Assembly (NCBI GenBank): GCA_024639825.1
Contig: JAHEGH010000021.1
Location: forward strand, 1 to 43,636
From: Gammaproteobacteria bacterium
GTDB taxonomy: Bacteria > Pseudomonadota > Gammaproteobacteria > Steroidobacterales > Woeseiaceae
DNA length: 43,636 nt
Direction: 5' to 3'
The notes below the pieces were generated by a model, which had not been told where the DNA came from, searched no databases, and worked only from the letters and a program-made list of their open reading frames with translations. The position numbers and the translations under genes were made by a program. Shown here piece after piece: positions 5,628-12,685 of this stretch (position 1 is its first letter; every line of letters starts with the position of its first letter).

Positions 5628-7112
5628 ATGAATCAGCCCTTAAACACACGACCCATCGGTATCAGCGGCCTCGCCGCCTATATCCCTCCGTACCGCGTAT
5701 GGTTGGAGGACTGGTGTGACTGGACGGAAAACCAGTGGCCGAAGATTCGGGAAGTCGTGGGGCGCAGCTTCCGGGTGCGCGGGCCCAACCATAGCGTTTA
5801 TACGATGGCGGCCAATGCCGTCCTCCGCCTGATCGACCAGTACGATGTTGATCCAACACGGGTCAAGTTCCTCGGGCTGGGCACCGAGTCCAGTACCGAC
5901 AACTCGGCTGGCGCCATCATCATCAAGGGCATGGTCGACGAGGCGCTGATCGCTCGCGGCAAACCGCCCATCTCGCGCAGTTGCGAAGTGCCGGAGTTCA
6001 AGCACGCCTGCCTCGGTGGCGTCTACGGCATGAAGGGTGCGATTCGCCATCTCGCACTGGATGGTGCCGGTAGCCAGGCAATCGTTGTCTGCGCCGATAT
6101 CGCCGAGTACGCGCGCGGCAGCTCAGGCGAACCCACTCAGGGTGCCGGTGCTGTGGCCATGCTGCTCGAGGAGAATCCCCAGCTGGCCGTTGTGGACCTG
6201 GTCGGATCCGGGTCCGCTTCTGACTACCGGATCATGGACTTCCGCAAGCCAATGGCACGCTTCTGCGGCCAGGATCGCTCGGAGTCGCACCAGGTTCAGG
6301 ACTTCCCGGTCTTCAACGGCAAGTACTCAACGACCTGCTACATCGACGAGACGCTGCACGCTTTGAACGACATGTACGAGAAGCGCAAGCTGAACCCAAG
6401 CCAGTACCTGCGTTCCTTGCGTACCGTATTCATGCATCGCCCATATCGCCGCATGCCAGAAACGGGCTGGGCCGTCTCTTATCTGTTTGCCCTGGGCCAC
6501 GGCAACAGCGAAGACAAGGCGGAACTTGCCTCCTACTGTTACGAAGCCGGCATCGATGTGACCTTGATGCTTAAGGAAATGGCGTCCAAGCCTGAAATTA
6601 CGAGCCTCGCGCAACCCGACACGTTGAACTACGAGGCGTATCCGCTGACGATGGCCGCGCTGCGCGCATTCCGCGCATCACGCCACTTCCGCCGCGAGAT
6701 TCTGGACAAGATGAAACTCGGCAGTGACACGATGCTGGATCTCGGCAACCTCTACACCGCGGCACTGCCCGCATGGATGGCTGCCGGCTTCGAGCAGGCG
6801 CTTGAAGAGAATTCGCTTGAGGCGGGCCAGGAGGTACTGACCCTCGGATACGGCAGCGGCGACGCCGCCGAGGTTATCCCGTTCTTCATGGCCGAAGGCT
6901 GGAAGGAAGCTACTCGCAAGATCCACTTTGCCGATGCGATGCAGCTTGCGGTTGATCTGACGTTTGACCAGTACAAGGCACTGCATGACGGGCGACGCGC
7001 CAGCGGTCTCGACTATGTGCCCAATAACGAGTTTGTTATTGAACGCGTTGGCGGCTCGGATGAGCGCCATTTTGCCGACCTTGGCATCGAGTACTACAAG
7101 TACATCGCCTAA
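5628..7112 (+). CDS. mvaS: Hydroxymethylglutaryl-CoA synthase
   Basis: Condenses acetyl-CoA with acetoacetyl-CoA to HMG-CoA, the committed entry to the mevalonate pathway. The thiolase-fold protein of 494 residues carries the expected catalytic triad context: Glu87 in GLGTESSTDN, the acylated Cys128 in EFKHACLGGVYG, and His270 in VFMHRPYRRMP. It is longer than Gram-positive MvaS (about 390). Strong upstream promoter; no Shine-Dalgarno sequence. Its last 4 bp overlap the 3' end of idi on the opposite strand, so the gene converges on the rest of the mevalonate operon instead of being part of it. Confidence 0.93.
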   Translation: MNQPLNTRPIGISGLAAYIPPYRVWLEDWCDWTENQWPKIREVVGRSFRVRGPNHSVYTMAANAVLRLIDQYDVDPTRVKFLGLGTESSTDNSAGAIIIKGMVDEALIARGKPPISRSCEVPEFKHACLGGVYGMKGAIRHLALDGAGSQAIVVCADIAEYARGSSGEPTQGAGAVAMLLEENPQLAVVDLVGSGSASDYRIMDFRKPMARFCGQDRSESHQVQDFPVFNGKYSTTCYIDETLHALNDMYEKRKLNPSQYLRSLRTVFMHRPYRRMPETGWAVSYLFALGHGNSEDKAELASYCYEAGIDVTLMLKEMASKPEITSLAQPDTLNYEAYPLTMAALRAFRASRHFRREILDKMKLGSDTMLDLGNLYTAALPAWMAAGFEQALEENSLEAGQEVLTLGYGSGDAAEVIPFFMAEGWKEATRKIHFADAMQLAVDLTFDQYKALHDGRRASGLDYVPNNEFVIERVGGSDERHFADLGIEYYKYIA

Positions 7113-7681
7113 ACAGCGCAGTAGCTCGACAGCTGCTCCGCATAGTTCCGGTTTAACTCCCGCCATTCCTGTTTAAACCAGGGCGTATAGCTGTCCGGGT
7201 GCTGCTCCAGCGCTTTGGCAAGATCGTCAGCAGCAATATAGCGAATGCCTGAGATCTCACTTTCGTTCGGCTGAACATTGTTAGCCGCCCTGCCCAGGAA
7301 GACGTGGCAAAGCTCGTTCTCTGAGCCTGCGCTACCAAAGTCCGCCTCGTAGCAAAACCGGTAAACATATTCGAGTTCAGTATCGAAATTAAGCTCATCC
7401 AGCAGCCGACGGGACGTCGCCACCGAGAGCGATTCACCGCGTCGCGGATGGCTGCAACAACTGTTCGACCAGTAGCCGCCCCACAGCCGCTTCGATGGCG
7501 CGCGCTGCTGCAGCAGCAATTCGCCCGCCTCGTTGAAAAGGAAAAGAGAAAAAGCGCGGTGCAGGATACCGTCACCGTCGTGGGCATCCGCTTTTGAGGC
7601 GTAGCCAATTTCGTTGTCGTCCCGATCGACCAGGATGAGTTCTTCGCTCTCGGACGAGACAATTCTGTGTTGGTTATTCAC
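7109..7681 (-). CDS. idi: Isopentenyl-diphosphate delta-isomerase, type I
   Basis: Interconverts isopentenyl and dimethylallyl diphosphate. The 190-residue Nudix-fold protein has the type I signatures: LHRAFSLFLFN, the catalytic cysteine in WSNSCCSHPRRGE, and the second active-site region around YEADFGSAGSENELCHVFLG with its glutamates. The ATG overlaps the stop of the HMG-CoA reductase/mevalonate kinase gene by 4 bp, making it the last gene of the leftward mevalonate operon. It supplies both C5 units for IspA, which is encoded just beyond the operon promoter. Confidence 0.94.
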   Translation of the reverse strand: MNNQHRIVSSESEELILVDRDDNEIGYASKADAHDGDGILHRAFSLFLFNEAGELLLQQRAPSKRLWGGYWSNSCCSHPRRGESLSVATSRRLLDELNFDTELEYVYRFCYEADFGSAGSENELCHVFLGRAANNVQPNESEISGIRYIAADDLAKALEQHPDSYTPWFKQEWRELNRNYAEQLSSYCAV

Positions 7682-9816
7682 GACGATTCACCGGCGGCGA
7701 GCACCAGCGCACTGTAACCCGCCTGTTCCATTGCATCCCGTACCGCTTCAATGCAACCGGGGCACAGCGCGACGATCGATCCGCCCCCGCCCGCACCGGT
7801 CAACTTGGCGCCAACGGCACCGCTTTGCCGGGCCAACCTGACCATGTGCTCGAGGTTCGGCGTGGAAACACCAATAGCGTTAAGCAGACCATGACAGATG
7901 TTCATGGCGGCACCCAGTTCGTTCCAGGCGCCGGCGCGCAGGTAGTCAGCGCCCTCCCGGCTCAACCTGTCCATCTGATCGAACACGGCATCGAAGTGCT
8001 CCGGCGCCTGTTCCCGACGCGCGCGAACGCCAGCCACCATCTCGCTGGTCCTCCCGGTTTCGTCTCCCCAGGCAATAAGCAGCGGTGGCGGTATATCCAG
8101 GGCAAGCGTTTCGATCTGCAGACCGTCATTCCTGCAGAACAGCATCGGCCGCGCGTACGTGGACAGCGTGTTATCGATACCGGACGGCGTTCCGTGTGCA
8201 AGCTTCTCACTCTCGAAGGCAATCGCATTGATCCGCTCGTCACCCAGCCCGAGACCCAGGTGCTCATCGAACGCTCTGACAATACCAACGGCGATGGCGG
8301 CTGAAGAGCCGAGGCCTTTGCCGAAAGGAAGCCGCGAGTCGACACTGATACGTACATTTGTATTCTCGACACCCAGCTCTCGCAGGAGGACTGCGACAAA
8401 CTCGTCGGGTAAATCATGTGACAGCGTTTGTGCTGCAGAGATCGAAACACTCACTGCGCCCGGAATGGGCAATGCCAGCGCATGGCGGCCATATACAACC
8501 CCATGCTCGCCCAACAATATGACCTTTCCGGCAGCCGATGCAGCCTGTCCAAGCGTGTCGCTACCCTGCAATGCGCCCAGGATCTCCCGGACCTTCCATT
8601 CCTTGATCTCCCCGCTCTCGATCAACTGCTCGACAACGGTATCGAACACATCATCGGGCGTACCAGCGGAGGCAACGACGCTACGCGCGTGGAGTTTCAT
8701 ATGGCCGGCCTGGATGCCGCTGGTCGCAAGCGCTCGCAGCGCGGCAAAATTCTGCGCCAAACCAACAGCGGCCATCAGCTCCGCGAGCTCGCGCGCATTA
8801 TTCGTCCCGGCCAAAGCCAGCCCCAGGCGAGCAGCGGGGTTGTTTGCCAACGTACCGCCGACGGTGCCAACCTTCAGCGGCATTTTGAGCTCGCCGACAA
8901 GGTCGCCATTGTCGGCAGTGCTCCAGCGCGTCAATGACTGGTACCTGCCCATTGCCGCGGCGTAGGCATGCGCACCCGCTTCAATGGCCCGCCAATCGTT
9001 GCCCGTCGCTATTGCGAGTGCATCAACGCCGTTCATGACGCCCTTGTTGTGAGTGGTTGCCCTGTATGGGTCGACCAGCGCGATATCACTTGCCATCACA
9101 ATGGCGTCACGCACATCGTCGGGCAATGAGTACCGCACGCGCGCGGTGAAGAGCGAACGGTCAGCCAGGTTCGACAATATTCGAAGAGCAACCTGTCCTG
9201 CGCACAGCGCTGCAATGTCCGGGGCCACCGCTTCGCAGATCGTATTGACCAGATTGGCGCCCATGGCGTCGCAGGTATCGACAAGCACGTGCACGGCGAT
9301 CAATGGGCCGCCATCGGGCAGCGCAAAAAGGCGTACTTCGATATCGCGCACACCGCCGCCACGCTCTGTCAGTCGCGGGTGTACTGCGTTGGCTGCATCG
9401 AGCAACTCCGCTTTTGCGTCCCCGATGGCCGCGATGGCGTGGTCGACATCGCCCACTCCGGTCACGTGCACCTGGCCGATCAGCAACGAGCTTTCGTTCT
9501 CCACCTCAAAGCCACCTGCGGGGCGCGCCATTGCCGCGGCACTGCTCAATCCGGCAACAATGGACGGCTCTTCAACCACAAGGGGCACGACATGCTCTCG
9601 ACCGTTGACGATAAAGTTCGGAGCGATCGCGAACGGCAGGCCGAATACACCAACCACGTTCTCGATCATGCGATCGGCAGCGGCGGACGCCAGTACGTGG
9701 CGGCCATCGCGCAGGCGCGCCGCATCGGCGGGCGACAAGCAACCCAGTTCCTCGAGCCTGGCAATGCGCTCAGGAACGCTCAGTCGGTAGAATCCGGCGA
9801 TACGGGAGTCCTTCAT
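7678..9816 (-). CDS. HMG-CoA reductase (class II) fused to mevalonate kinase
   Basis: A two-domain enzyme of 712 residues predicted to run two consecutive steps, HMG-CoA to mevalonate to 5-phosphomevalonate. Residues 1-~425 are a full-length class II HMG-CoA reductase. The four catalytic residues line up with a near-constant offset to the Pseudomonas mevalonii enzyme: Glu83 in VVEEPSIVAG, Lys258 in TTHNKGVMNG, Asp274 in GNDWRA and His372 in GHMKLHARSV; DAMGANLVNT and NNPAARLGL are also present. Residues ~428-712 are a GHMP kinase: motif 1 GKVILLGEHGVVYG, motif 2 LPFGKGLGSSAA, HGTPSGIDN with the catalytic Asp548, and motif 3 KLTGAGGGGS. The GEHGVVYG motif and GTPSGIDN favour mevalonate kinase. 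The linker is only a few residues long (junction near position 8535). It overlaps both neighbours by 4 bp. There is one reading frame with no internal stop, so this is not a chimeric artefact visible in the sequence. Confidence 0.92.
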   Translation of the reverse strand: MKDSRIAGFYRLSVPERIARLEELGCLSPADAARLRDGRHVLASAAADRMIENVVGVFGLPFAIAPNFIVNGREHVVPLVVEEPSIVAGLSSAAAMARPAGGFEVENESSLLIGQVHVTGVGDVDHAIAAIGDAKAELLDAANAVHPRLTERGGGVRDIEVRLFALPDGGPLIAVHVLVDTCDAMGANLVNTICEAVAPDIAALCAGQVALRILSNLADRSLFTARVRYSLPDDVRDAIVMASDIALVDPYRATTHNKGVMNGVDALAIATGNDWRAIEAGAHAYAAAMGRYQSLTRWSTADNGDLVGELKMPLKVGTVGGTLANNPAARLGLALAGTNNARELAELMAAVGLAQNFAALRALATSGIQAGHMKLHARSVVASAGTPDDVFDTVVEQLIESGEIKEWKVREILGALQGSDTLGQAASAAGKVILLGEHGVVYGRHALALPIPGAVSVSISAAQTLSHDLPDEFVAVLLRELGVENTNVRISVDSRLPFGKGLGSSAAIAVGIVRAFDEHLGLGLGDERINAIAFESEKLAHGTPSGIDNTLSTYARPMLFCRNDGLQIETLALDIPPPLLIAWGDETGRTSEMVAGVRARREQAPEHFDAVFDQMDRLSREGADYLRAGAWNELGAAMNICHGLLNAIGVSTPNLEHMVRLARQSGAVGAKLTGAGGGGSIVALCPGCIEAVRDAMEQAGYSALVLAAGESS

Positions 9817-10718
9817 GACGGCTCCAGTCGCACCCCGTCCGGATCCAGGCCGCAGGATACGACGCCTTGAATACGGTCCGCATGTTTCGCGACAAACGCA
9901 TCGAACTCCGTCTCATCGCGACCGAAGAGTACGCCAATATCGCCGCCGCCGGCGCCCGCTGGTTTGTAGACGAGGTTGCTCACCATCGCTGCGTCCGTCA
10001 GTTGATCGTGGCCAGCATCGAATATGCCAAGGTCGTGGTCAACACTGAACTGCCGCAGCACGCCGATATAAGCGTTGTACTCGGAAAGGATTCTGTCCGT
10101 GTCGCCGCTGCGCCACGCATCTGCCATCTGAGCGGCAGCCAGCACCAGGGCCGATCGCGACGGACGCACTGTCTGTGTCGCAAGTTTCTCAAGCATCAGG
10201 CCCGTGCTGGCCGGCACGCCTGTCCAGAGAACACGCATTAGCAAGCCGTCCGGCCAGGACAGCTTCCGCACGTTCCGCGAGGACATTTCGTATTCGATAA
10301 GCCCGCCGCAGACCGCCGCTGCTACATCAATCCCGCTGCCAGTTCCGCCCTGCAGTACAGCGTGGGCGTCCAGCGCAGCCGTAAGCACATCCACGGAAGC
10401 ACTTCTTGCAGCCGCCAACGCGACCGTCAGGGCGGCGCTGGAGCCAATGCCCACCTTCCGGCCGTCTCTTGAGAAAGCCCGGGTATCGAGATCGATATTC
10501 CTGGCAGGACGCGTACCTCCGTATACGGCATCGACCACGGCAAAAGAGCCCTCGCCGGTGAACCCAGGCGTCGTCACATGGCACTCGCCGTCGGCGCTAT
10601 CGGCCACTGTGACGATCGCACGCCGCATAACGGCCATACAGACGGCTGGTGCGCCAAAGAGCACAGCATATTCGCCCGACAACACAATCTTCCCCGGCGC
10701 GCTTGCCACGACGGTCAC
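9813..10718 (-). CDS. Phosphomevalonate kinase (GHMP family)
   Basis: Predicted to phosphorylate 5-phosphomevalonate to 5-diphosphomevalonate. At 301 residues it has GHMP motif 1 SAPGKIVLSGEYAVLFGAP (about residues 6-24), motif 2 KVGIGSSAALTVA (about 88-100), GGTGSGIDVAAAVCGG and motif 3 YKPAGAGGGDIGVLF near the C-terminus. The SGEYAVL form of motif 1 is typical of phosphomevalonate kinases, while mevalonate kinase is already supplied by the fusion next door; together these support the assignment. Mevalonate kinase activity cannot be excluded from sequence alone. It sits between mvaD and the fusion gene with 4-bp overlaps on both sides. Confidence 0.85.
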   Translation of the reverse strand: MTVVASAPGKIVLSGEYAVLFGAPAVCMAVMRRAIVTVADSADGECHVTTPGFTGEGSFAVVDAVYGGTRPARNIDLDTRAFSRDGRKVGIGSSAALTVALAAARSASVDVLTAALDAHAVLQGGTGSGIDVAAAVCGGLIEYEMSSRNVRKLSWPDGLLMRVLWTGVPASTGLMLEKLATQTVRPSRSALVLAAAQMADAWRSGDTDRILSEYNAYIGVLRQFSVDHDLGIFDAGHDQLTDAAMVSNLVYKPAGAGGGDIGVLFGRDETEFDAFVAKHADRIQGVVSCGLDPDGVRLEPS

Positions 10719-11704
10719 GAGCCGTCCTCCAGCCTCGCACCCCCACCGAGTCCCGTCGTCATGATGTCGGTCACTCCTGCGGTCGCACGCAGAGCCGCTT
10801 CGACATTATCGACATGCTCCGGCAGGCACACAGCTTTGACCTGTGGTCCAGCGTCAATCGTGAAGAACACGCCAATACCCTGTCCCTGCAGTTGCCGCAC
10901 CGTTTGCAGGCAGCGCATGGTTGCCGCATTCCAGTACACCATCGGCGGCCGCGACGCCCACATGATGGAGTGCATTTTCAGGCAATTGTGTTCGGCAATT
11001 GCCGCGAGTTTTTCGAAATCACGTGTCGCTATTGCGGTGCGCGCCGTATCAAGGTCCTGCGCCTGTTGTTCGATCCAGCTTGAGTAAAATGGCGAGGTCT
11101 GCCGACTGATCTCCATTGCCTCGGTGGAACCCACGGCCTTTGGGCCTTTCTCGGTGATCGCCACAACGACAGAGAGTGGCCAGTCATCTGGCTGCGCAAT
11201 CGTTCGGCAGTGAATATCGTCGTCGCGGTTTTGCAACTCTACGAAGCCACCGAAGAGAGAGCGCGCTGCCGAACCCGACGCCCGTCCTGCAAGCGTCGCG
11301 AGCGTGTCGACGTCGAACTCACTGCCCGCCGCCTTCGCGGCCGCCAGCGTGACTGCCGCGAACGCAGAGGCCGACGACGCGAGTCCCGCTGCGATCGGAA
11401 AATTGCAGGTACTCGCGATGCGAGCGCGCGGTCGATCGGCCCCGGCAACCTCGTCAAGACACGCCGCAAGGCGCGGCAGCATCTTGTCGTCACCGGCCCC
11501 GTTGACCACCAGCGTATCCGCCCTAAGGGACTGATCAAATTCAACGTGCATGCGCGTGAACAGCTCACGCAGGGTGATCGAAATGGAGCCCACTGCAGGC
11601 AGGTTGCGCTCGACATCTCGCTTGCCCCAGTACTTGATGAGCGCGATATTCGGCTGTGCGATCGCCGTTCCCTGCATACCTGGATGATCCTTGAATGTGT
11701 TCAC
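10715..11704 (-). CDS. mvaD: Diphosphomevalonate decarboxylase
   Basis: ATP-dependent decarboxylation of 5-diphosphomevalonate to isopentenyl diphosphate. The 329-residue protein shows the family signatures: AQPNIALIKYWGKRD near the N-terminus (residues 16-30), the ATP-binding GLASSASAFAA loop, SGSAARSLFGGFVE with the substrate-binding arginine, and FFTIDAGPQVKAVC with the catalytic aspartate. It is the first gene of the leftward operon. The start is GTG, with no Shine-Dalgarno and a predicted leader of only about 5 nt, so the message may be effectively leaderless. The stop overlaps the phosphomevalonate kinase start by 4 bp. Confidence 0.95.
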   Translation of the reverse strand: MNTFKDHPGMQGTAIAQPNIALIKYWGKRDVERNLPAVGSISITLRELFTRMHVEFDQSLRADTLVVNGAGDDKMLPRLAACLDEVAGADRPRARIASTCNFPIAAGLASSASAFAAVTLAAAKAAGSEFDVDTLATLAGRASGSAARSLFGGFVELQNRDDDIHCRTIAQPDDWPLSVVVAITEKGPKAVGSTEAMEISRQTSPFYSSWIEQQAQDLDTARTAIATRDFEKLAAIAEHNCLKMHSIMWASRPPMVYWNAATMRCLQTVRQLQGQGIGVFFTIDAGPQVKAVCLPEHVDNVEAALRATAGVTDIMTTGLGGGARLEDGS

Positions 11705-11715
11705 AAAGGACGCGA

Positions 11716-11721
11716 ATTATA
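11716..11721 (-). promoter_or_regulatory. Perfect -10 box upstream of the mevalonate operon
   Basis: TATAAT read on the minus strand, 11 nt upstream of the mvaD GTG. The predicted start is at about 11709. No recognisable -35 box lies at 16-18 bp, so an activator or unusual promoter architecture is possible. The region (11705-11794) is shared with the divergent ispA gene. Confidence 0.45.
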
Positions 11722-11794
11722 GCCCAGCAAGGCGCGCGCACAGCGACTCGTTTCGGTGTAGGCTACATGGCCCGATGCCGCAGGAACCAGCACG

Positions 11795-12685
11795 TTGCAC
11801 CAGCCGTTCAAAGACCGCATAAGGAACTACCAGCAGCGCGTGGATGGACGACTCGACGAGGCGCTGCCACCGGCAACGCTCGCACCCGTACGTCTGCACG
11901 ATGCCATGCGCTATGCCGTGTTTAATGGTGGCAAGCGAGTACGCCCGTTGCTGGTGTACGCAGCTGGCGAATGTCTTGGTATCGATCCCGAGCTCCTCGA
12001 CGGGCCAGCGGTCGCCATCGAACTCATCCATGCATTTTCCCTGGTGCACGACGACCTGCCCGCGATGGACGATGACGACCTGCGCCGTGGTAAACCGACC
12101 GTCCACATCCAGTACGGCGAGGCAACGGCCATTCTCGCCGCCGACGCTCTGCAACCGCTCGCCTTTTCGGTGCTTGCCCGCATCGAACACACCCCGGATA
12201 CGGCAAGAAACGCACTCGTGAGGCTGATCGCGGATGCGTGTGGTTCGATCGGTATGACCGGCGGCCAGTCGATCGACCTGGCGGCCGAGGGCAAAACACT
12301 GACCGTGGACGAGCTCGAGCATATGTATACGCTGAAGACAGGCGCGCTGATTCATGCGTCGATCGTATCGGCATGCCTGTTGAGCGAGGATCTTGATGCC
12401 GCCCGTGCCGCTGCGCTCGACAATTTTGGAAGGGACATCGGCATTGCCTTCCAGATCAAGGACGATATTCTCGACGTCGAGGGTGAAACGCATGTCATTG
12501 GCAAACCATCGGGATCGGACGAGAAGCTGGGCAAGGCAACCTACCCCGCGTTGTTTGGCATCGACGCATCGCGCAAGCGCTGTGACGAATTACTGCAAAG
12601 CGGCTTGACTGCTCTGGCACCCTTCGGCGACGCTGCCGCCCCACTCAAATGGCTTGCGCGGTATATCGTAGACCGCGGCCAATAG
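11795..12685 (+). CDS. ispA: Farnesyl diphosphate synthase (short-chain polyprenyl synthase)
   Basis: Head-to-tail condensation of dimethylallyl and isopentenyl diphosphates to geranyl and farnesyl diphosphate. The 296-residue all-helical prenyltransferase has both aspartate-rich motifs: LVHDDLPAMDDDDLRRGKPT (FARM) and IAFQIKDDILDVEG (SARM), plus GGKRVRP for diphosphate binding. The two-residue insertion in the first motif (DDLPAMDDD) is the bacterial FPP synthase pattern. The start is TTG at 11795, preceded by AGGAA (11782-11786) at 8 nt; neighbouring ATGs are out of frame. It is divergent from the mevalonate operon across 90 bp and followed 3 nt later by dinB. Confidence 0.94.
   Translation: MHQPFKDRIRNYQQRVDGRLDEALPPATLAPVRLHDAMRYAVFNGGKRVRPLLVYAAGECLGIDPELLDGPAVAIELIHAFSLVHDDLPAMDDDDLRRGKPTVHIQYGEATAILAADALQPLAFSVLARIEHTPDTARNALVRLIADACGSIGMTGGQSIDLAAEGKTLTVDELEHMYTLKTGALIHASIVSACLLSEDLDAARAAALDNFGRDIGIAFQIKDDILDVEGETHVIGKPSGSDEKLGKATYPALFGIDASRKRCDELLQSGLTALAPFGDAAAPLKWLARYIVDRGQ

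Follow-up and report, generated by a model that had tools for sequence, protein, structure and literature searches.

A single open reading frame in the window (the whole 43,636-nucleotide stretch of DNA that was analyzed) joins a class II HMG-CoA reductase to a GHMP mevalonate kinase. This raises the question of whether the frame is one genuine gene, which reactions its two halves catalyze, and what the joining could achieve. The evidence supports a bifunctional reductase-kinase encoded in a biosynthetic mevalonate operon, and the sequences make it very likely that one enzyme serves two successive steps of the biosynthetic pathway.

One frame and two complete domains

The gene runs from an ATG at 9816 to a stop at 7678–7680, with 712 codons and no internal stop (Table 1). 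The preliminary description had recognized this single frame without naming its strand, which is minus. A Pfam search of the fusion protein identified HMG-CoA_red (PF00368) at residues 16–377 (324.7 bits, cut-off 27), followed by GHMP_kinases_N at 474–551 and GHMP_kinases_C at 625–701, each above its cut-off. These were the only domains found in that search, and the thiolase domain of MvaE-type fusions was absent. The protein also exceeds the equivalog cut-offs of TIGR00532 (373.6 bits, cut-off 259.95) and of TIGR00549, mevalonate kinase (235.4 bits, cut-off 163.05). All 56 aligned fused proteins retain Glu83, Lys258, Asp274, and His372 in the reductase half, and the kinase half is equally invariant in its GAKxTGxGGGG loop and in Lys431, Glu437, Ser505, and Asp548, which we take to be the GHMP catalytic residues. 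Of the 75 fused named loci, 55 are in this alignment (A1), together with the window; a second alignment (A2) has 51 rows. Both halves are therefore complete, as had been proposed, with all four named reductase residues in place.

Table 1. Positions of the fusion gene, its parts, and the neighboring genes in the window
Feature	Position	Strand	Remarks
HMG-CoA synthase, 494 aa, convergent to operon	5628..7112	+	Pfam HMG_CoA_synt_N/C above cut-off; TIGR01835 161.6 bits, under cut-off 360.35
Type I isopentenyl-diphosphate isomerase, 190 aa, last gene of operon	7109..7681	-	TIGR02150 144.8 bits, cut-off 105.8; GTGA overlap with 3' end of fusion gene
Fused class II HMG-CoA reductase/mevalonate kinase gene	7678..9816	-	712 aa and stop
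Mevalonate kinase part, residues 426-712	7681..8541	-	TIGR00549, solved relatives, fold matches
Linker, residues 418-425	8542..8565	-	AlphaFold model, pLDDT <50 at 418-423
Reductase C-terminal three-helix flap, residues 367-417	8566..8718	-	Contains catalytic His372 and clade-specific Trp407
HMG-CoA reductase part, residues 1-417	8566..9816	-	TIGR00532, invariant residues, identity to P. mevalonii HMGR
GHMP kinase, 301 aa, likely phosphomevalonate kinase	9813..10718	-	4-base ATGA overlap with fusion gene
Diphosphomevalonate decarboxylase, 329 aa, first gene of operon	10715..11704	-	TIGR01240 252.1 bits, cut-off 171.35; GTGA overlap
Farnesyl diphosphate synthase, 296 aa, divergent from operon	11795..12685	+	NF045485 330.7 bits, cut-off 275

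Of 80 named related loci, 75 encode both halves in a single frame, and some of these come from records whose titles name strains of Rhodanobacter, Dyella, and Marinobacter; the remaining five, all Myxococcaceae, have separate adjacent genes. Among 247 genomes of the order there are 93 single full-length fusion matches. This cross-species conservation refutes the reading that two genes were merged through assembly or sequencing error, to which we assign a negligible probability even though the named carriers are mostly metagenome bins, the frame changes close to the kinase start in one relative (G089), and an internal stop occurs in 3 of the 93 full-length matches. It likewise excludes a stop or frameshift near 8535 parting two genes, the event that the preliminary description had singled out as fatal to its claim. 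Five pairwise comparisons gave dN/dS values of 0.05–0.13 for the reductase core and 0.09–0.16 for the kinase, which indicate purifying selection on both halves but are rough because dS is near saturation (1.5–2.2).

Pathway context and the predicted reactions of the two halves

The genes adjoining the fusion encode further steps of the mevalonate pathway (Table 1), and HMG-CoA synthase adjoins the operon in Woeseiaceae loci too. Among the 75 fused named loci, where the contig left room, the decarboxylase is upstream in 57 of 62, a second GHMP kinase is upstream in 66 of 70, and the isomerase is downstream in 68 of 72. In Rhodanobacter, Marinobacter, and Nevskia, the genes on either side of the operon (10 frames, three of them without a Pfam match) included none specific to terpenoids.

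Homologs, which the preliminary description had allowed for, are widespread. The fusion was identified in 106 of 247 genomes of the order and in 10 of 370 genomes drawn across the class. Order-wide, Dxr scored above its cut-off in 139 genomes, none had both Dxr and the fusion, and two had neither. A set of 40 relatives divides into 33 that carry the fusion gene (in some cases cut by a contig end) with no IspH match and seven that have IspH with no fusion. Neither Dxr nor IspH was found in the genome that holds the window, although an absent gene is little proof by itself because this genome is 90.5% complete. The argument for a sole route rests on the pattern over the 247 genomes, which are kin: as the fusion and Dxr never occur together, the fusion appears to feed the only isoprenoid route found in this order. 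In other bacteria, Dxr above cut-off accompanies the fusion in four of eight carriers tested (a Marinobacter, two Rhodanobacter, and a Planctomycetota MAG), and a fifth has a match below cut-off, so the fusion is not the sole isoprenoid route everywhere. A search of plasmids matched 58 records, none of which had a single stretch covering 80% of the query, and the ten plasmid records listed match the reductase part only.

The cofactor helix bears on the direction of the reductase. In class II enzymes, the motif Dx(V/L)xxxL corresponds to NADH and (H/Y)xSxxxR to NADPH, according to excerpts of PMC13370337. The window has His146, Arg148, and Arg152. Of 79 fused rows, 75 have His at position 146 and all have Arg at position 152; Asp occupies position 146 in 9 of 10 stand-alone rows classed as degradative-like (these tallies, like that of Trp407 below, exclude the divergent L107). 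The ends of the helix thus look NADPH-type rather than NADH-type, but the choice of cofactor is uncertain because just 3 of the 79 fused rows have the Ser at the center of the motif.

Could the reductase half instead be degradative, converting mevalonate to HMG-CoA with NAD+, with the kinase competing for or sensing mevalonate? The family name of TIGR00532 says degradative, and this half is 47–48% identical to the Pseudomonas mevalonii enzyme. We nevertheless consider this extremely unlikely, since downstream pathway genes share the operon, Dxr and IspH were not found, and the NADH-type Asp146 and Leu152 are replaced by His and Arg. In addition, three genomes of the order that have Dxr (G143, G187, and G191) possess stand-alone reductases that branch apart, with no operon genes within the surrounding 5.5–6 kb. 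The same evidence from operon, missing Dxr and IspH, and cofactor helix upholds the biosynthetic role claimed earlier. The accompanying remark that class II reductases are often considered degradative proved too narrow, because Gram-positive bacteria use class II reductases in the mevalonate pathway (excerpts of PMC10070635), and the TIGR00532 label is misleading for a large, probably biosynthetic clade.

Several results point to mevalonate as the substrate of the kinase half. When its 29 solved relatives are ranked by sequence, mevalonate kinases take the first 11 places, and its matches in a fold search include 6mde, 8teb, and 2hfu, the first of which has mevalonate bound. The other GHMP matches in the genome are the second kinase of the operon, the decarboxylase, and a homoserine kinase (TIGR00191, 208.4 bits, cut-off 168.25), which leaves the 301-aa protein as the sole other GHMP kinase without another assignment. 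That protein would be the true mevalonate kinase if the fused half acted on a different substrate, such as mevalonate 5-phosphate. GHMP kinases are hard to distinguish from sequence, and the 301-aa protein scores almost equally against TIGR01220 (77.1 bits) and TIGR00549 (76.8 bits), both under cut-off. Of the two, however, the fused half alone passes the cut-off for mevalonate kinase, with 72 bits to spare; together with its solved relatives and the mevalonate-bound fold match, this makes such an exchange of roles very unlikely.

Linker, flap, and origin of the fusion

An AlphaFold model of the fusion protein predicts both folds (mean pLDDT 87.8), with an orientation of the domains that is not confident (pTM 0.61). 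The flap comprises helices at residues 368–383, 388–401, and 406–417, and the linker spans eight residues between the last of these and the first kinase strand (426–435), in agreement with the few residues described earlier. The kinase is thus attached to the mobile flap of the reductase. The last flap helix has a Trp at its beginning (Trp407) in 71 of 79 fused rows and in 0 of 25 other rows. Flap helices 2 and 3, and Trp407 with them, are missing in 4 of 93 fused rows, representing three genomes; at least five genomes enter this count in duplicate (L015/L120, L019/L121, L024/L123, L045/L109, and L065/L127), and L083, L084, L085, and L092 (frame change or cut) and the divergent L107 are excluded. 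The two helices were lost at least twice, and no such loss was found in the 24 stand-alone reductases examined.

In the mechanism we propose, the N-terminal reductase would convert HMG-CoA to mevalonate with two reducing equivalents, probably from NADPH, and the C-terminal kinase would use ATP to form mevalonate phosphate. The flap is the lid that positions the catalytic histidine and opens for mevalonate to exit, with the short, flexible linker tying the kinase to its end. The most likely benefit would be a fixed one-to-one supply of the enzymes and a local concentration effect: a kinase near the exit may draw the reversible reaction forward, with no sealed tunnel. We infer both activities, the NADPH preference, and the pull on the reductase reaction.

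Closer integration of the halves can be imagined in two ways. Mevalonate might be channeled directly from one site to the other through a fixed interface, given that the steps are consecutive, that the kinase is joined to the lid where products exit, and that Trp407 is a possible interface residue. A linker of 6–56 residues with no conserved sequence in 56 fused proteins argues against a fixed tunnel, as do its low confidence in the model, the uncertain orientation of the domains, and the three relatives that have neither helices 2 and 3 nor Trp407. We regard direct channeling as improbable. Alternatively, the kinase could be part of the lid itself, with flap closure mechanically coupled to kinase movement and the kinase body replacing helices 2 and 3. 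Their repeated loss in fused enzymes only would then reflect a kinase that does their work, and the flap would be the means by which kinase occupancy or feedback inhibition controls the rate-limiting reductase. This coupling is a rather doubtful proposal; in a fold prediction for the flap-poor relative L015, residues 382–399, between helix 1 and the kinase, have pLDDT <50, and that model lends no support to a kinase replacing the flap body. Flexible tethering is the mechanism we prefer.

Phylogenetic trees were constructed from every second fused row and named exceptions, giving 42 loci and the window out of 76 usable loci, with one genome present twice (L045 and L109) and L083, L084, L085, and L092 (frame change or cut) excluded. 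The fused reductases form one clade (43 rows, SH-aLRT 97), which suggests one joining event. In the kinase tree, fused kinases lie to one side of a branch (SH-aLRT 90), but when this tree is rooted, stand-alone kinases from Myxococcaceae and others fall among them. It neither proves nor refutes a single origin because the root is a very distant paralog and long branches were flagged. The Myxococcaceae (Corallococcus) pair has the reductase gene followed directly by the kinase gene, and its reductase is sister to the fused clade (SH-aLRT 88); it differs in having a stop codon and a short spacer between the genes and the decarboxylase downstream rather than upstream. The fusion probably arose once, from adjacent genes as still seen in this family.

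Comparison with known systems

The preliminary description knew of no characterized fusion of HMG-CoA reductase with a kinase, and no earlier report was found among the titles and abstract openings of the open-access articles searched; an earlier mention may exist elsewhere. Excerpts of PMC13001223 refer to the fusions MvaE and IspDF and not to one of reductase with kinase, and the words "fused" and "mevalonate kinase" are absent from the text of PMC13370337, which describes a reductase network of 6,924 nodes. The arrangement is of wider interest in that many genomes of one order have a kinase on the flap, and some lineages have a flap cut to the catalytic helix. With these natural variants, it becomes possible to test what the flap and the tethering of enzymes contribute, and terpenoid engineering gains from the fusion a ready-made module in one polypeptide.

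The reductase half resembles the class II enzyme of P. mevalonii (1qax, 9dcp), which a fold search matched at 47–48% identity and which has the same fold, three-helix flap, and set of four catalytic residues. The P. mevalonii reductase is a stand-alone enzyme of the NADH type, with Asp146, Leu148, and Leu152 (excerpts of PMC10070635), in contrast to the His146, Arg148, and Arg152 and the added kinase seen here. For the kinase half, the best solved sequence relative and the best kinase fold match is the mevalonate kinase of Methanosarcina mazei (6mde, 4hac), with ~30% identity and the GHMP motifs, which is also stand-alone. Enzymes for isoprenoid precursors are also naturally fused in IspDF of the MEP pathway, which is common in bacteria (excerpts of PMC13001223), but IspDF belongs to a different pathway and joins non-consecutive steps. 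MvaE of Enterococcus faecalis is, like the protein described here, a mevalonate pathway fusion that contains HMG-CoA reductase (excerpts of PMC13001223). In MvaE the partner is acetoacetyl-CoA thiolase, so that steps 1 and 3 are joined, whereas here a kinase follows the C-terminal flap and the steps are consecutive.

Fusion gene and operon

The claim in the preliminary description that a class II HMG-CoA reductase and a mevalonate kinase share one uninterrupted frame was borne out (table). Pfam searches placed HMG-CoA_red at residues 16–377 and two GHMP kinase domains at residues 474–551 and 625–701, and the translated frame exceeded the NCBIfam cut-offs for TIGR00532 (373.6 bits, cut-off 259.95) and for the mevalonate kinase model TIGR00549 (235.4 bits, cut-off 163.05). 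The fusion is the third gene in a minus-strand operon of four, with 4-base start/stop overlaps at all junctions. The HMG-CoA synthase scores below the curated cut-off of every listed NCBIfam model, as a divergent type without a model of its own. The 90-base divergent space (11704–11795) holds a TATAAT, noticed by eye, immediately ahead of where the decarboxylase begins. Elsewhere in the window's genome, a weak HMGR-like match (L002, G000:C105:14765-15037; 38.6 bits, below cut-off) lies within a 476-codon frame.

Features of the mevalonate gene cluster in the window
Feature	Coordinates	Strand	Details
Decarboxylase	11704-10715	-	Operon gene 1
GHMP kinase, 301 aa	10718-9813	-	Operon gene 2
Fusion HMG-CoA reductase/mevalonate kinase	9816-7678	-	712 codons, ATG start, zero internal stops
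Type I IPP isomerase	7681-7109	-	Operon gene 4
HMG-CoA synthase	5628-7112	+	Convergent with operon
Farnesyl diphosphate synthase	11795-12685	+	Divergent from operon

The 301-aa GHMP kinase falls below the cut-off for every listed NCBIfam model, as a divergent type without its own model, and beyond the operon the window's genome has a single GHMP match, a homoserine kinase (TIGR00191, 208.4 bits, cut-off 168.25) adjoining homoserine dehydrogenase. On these sequence matches the fused kinase is therefore assigned to the phosphorylation of mevalonate, with the phosphomevalonate step presumed, by elimination, to belong to the 301-aa protein.

An AlphaFold2 model built on 56 fused sequences (mean pLDDT 87.8, pTM 0.61) has a reductase part closed by a three-helix flap (helices 368–383, 388–401, and 406–417), pLDDT below 50 at residues 418–423, and the kinase's first strand beginning at 426. 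Foldseek hits for the first part of the model were class II reductases, among them that of Pseudomonas mevalonii; those for the second part were mevalonate kinases, among them the mevalonate-bound 6mde. The four reductase residues previously reported (E83, K258, D274, and H372) are invariant in 56/56 fused sequences, as are K431, E437, S505, D548, and the GAKxTGxGGGG loop of the kinase. The linker was described as a few residues long and has eight between residues 417 and 426 in the window (range 6–56, median 17.5 in the 56 sequences). The earlier interpretation is supported apart from the direct passing of mevalonate, which is conjectural and, in the form of rigid channelling, unlikely. Pairwise dN/dS values against five relatives were 0.05–0.13 for the reductase core and 0.09–0.16 for the kinase, which are only rough because dS was 1.5–2.2. 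A short deletion in the reductase (window 9115–9120, minus strand, between residues 233 and 234) is shared by the window and L003, L004, L005, L007, L019, and L024 among 79 fused rows.

Distribution and the MEP route

A scan of named genomes returned at least 80 loci, and both halves occur in one frame at 75 of the 80 listed; three of these run off the contig within the kinase (L018, L062, L081) and three start within the reductase (L012, L023, L073). An assembly artefact is ruled out by this recurrence, and the window's frame contains neither a stop nor a frameshift separating the halves. Fused loci occur in records titled as strains of Rhodanobacter lindaniclasticus, R. thiooxydans, Dyella dinghuensis, and Marinobacter gelidimuriae, and in bins labelled Woeseiaceae, Wenzhouxiangella, Nevskia, Salinisphaera, and others. 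At the other five loci, all Myxococcaceae, reductase and kinase are separate neighbouring genes, divided by a stop and a short spacer. Where the contig left room, fused loci have a decarboxylase (57/62) and a second GHMP kinase (66/70) upstream and an isomerase downstream (68/72).

The search of the window's order covered 247 genomes (at least 90% complete) and found the fusion in 106. It was recovered as one nearly whole-length match in 93 genomes (G013, G039, and G245 with one internal stop), as two same-frame matches in four (G001, G035, G059, G241), split over two contig ends in two (G095, G242), as a piece only in six (G006, G062, G079, G091, G237, G240), and with a frame change in one (G089). 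Contig ends at the partial copies were checked in the sequence for G006, G091, and G240 and judged from coordinates for G062 and G237. At the G089 locus (L083, G089:C50) the frame shifts near the kinase's first strand, perhaps through sequencing error or decay. A same-genus genome bearing the fusion also has a second, divergent, stand-alone reductase (L089, G239:C28). Across the class, 26 of 370 evenly drawn genomes (at least 90% complete; threshold 1e-20) gave matches: nine whole-length fusions (G294 with one internal stop), one truncated where its contig stops (G420), plus 16 reductase-only matches, with sequence fetched for 15. The architecture is thus widespread in sequence databases, at 106/247 genomes in the order and 10/370 across the class, including G420. 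No earlier description of a reductase–kinase fusion was found in the open-access literature searched, and earlier mention elsewhere is possible.

Dxr, a marker of the MEP route, was above cut-off in 139 of the 247 genomes; none had both Dxr and the fusion, and two had neither (G060, G226). A Fisher P value for this split takes no account of relatedness among the genomes and was set aside. Among 40 relatives, 33 carry the fusion gene (cut in G006, G008, G020, and G024) with zero matches to the marker IspH, and seven have IspH without the fusion. For eight fused carriers from named loci, placed outside the order by name alone, Dxr was above cut-off in four (L033, L048, L082, L058), below it in one (L051), and not found in three (L064, L027, L028); it was also not found in two Corallococcus with the unfused pair. 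Within the window's order, the fused operon therefore substitutes for the MEP route; in some other bacteria the two occur side by side. L058, from a bin labelled Planctomycetota, has a rearranged operon, and L064, from a bin labelled Myxococcales, lacks the operon partners in the stretch examined; each may reflect transfer or binning error. In other genomes of the class (L099, L102, L103, L105), unfused mevalonate genes lie close to another type of reductase, which suggests that the pathway was acquired on separate occasions.

Flap and cofactor helix

The kinase is joined to the end of the reductase's moving flap. The final flap helix has Trp407 at its beginning in 71/79 fused rows vs. 0/25 others. 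Flap helices 2 and 3 are absent in the assembled sequences of L015, L021 (both from metagenome bins), and L119 (G001), whose proteins share 58%–63% identity; the L015 protein is 99.9% identical to that of G241. In these proteins, and in L120, the catalytic-His helix is followed almost at once by the kinase. From the helix-1 His-Ala-Arg to the kinase's first Gly/Ala-Lys, 23, 19, and 20 residues (the 20 by eye) remain in L015, L021, and L119, respectively, compared with 51 in the window. The loss affects four rows from three genomes among 93 fused rows (at least five genomes entered twice) and 0/24 stand-alone rows, and each of the three genomes has one HMG-CoA reductase match. A quick-search tree built with the flap columns excluded gives three changes as the fewest for this loss, and its well-supported branches force at least two. 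A model of L015 keeps helix 1 (374–386, low confidence at its end), with pLDDT below 50 at 382–399 ahead of the kinase.

A passage in PMC13370337 gives the class II motifs as Dx(V/L)xxxL for NADH and (H/Y)xSxxxR for NADPH, and one in PMC10070635 names Asp146, Leu148, and Leu152 as determinants in the NADH-using P. mevalonii enzyme. Position 146 is His in 75/79 fused rows and 5/5 Myxococcaceae, Asp in 9/10 stand-alone rows that we classed as degradative-like, and Ala, Leu, or Ile in 10/10 rows of the other stand-alone group, which has further mevalonate genes nearby at 6/10 loci. Position 152 is Arg in all fused (79/79), Myxococcaceae (5/5), and other stand-alone (10/10) rows, and Leu in 7/10 degradative-like rows. 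The fused enzymes match the NADPH motif at its two ends but carry the middle Ser in just 3/79 rows, so NADPH use is likely, though not certain.

Origin of the fusion

A reductase tree of 69 rows was constructed by quick search without bootstrap; flags were raised for three long branches and for four rows of odd composition. It groups the 43 fused rows in a single clade (SH-aLRT 97), whose sister is the set of five unfused Myxococcaceae (88), and the 21 other stand-alone enzymes fall outside. Given this tree, one fusion of neighbouring genes would be the simplest reading. A branch of the kinase tree (90) has the fused rows on one side; when this tree is rooted with a very distant paralogue, unfused kinases land among the fused ones. 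The Myxococcaceae gene pair (L074, L075, L076, L071, L072) is likely the pre-fusion arrangement. There the decarboxylase follows the pair, whereas in the window it precedes the fusion as the first gene of the operon.
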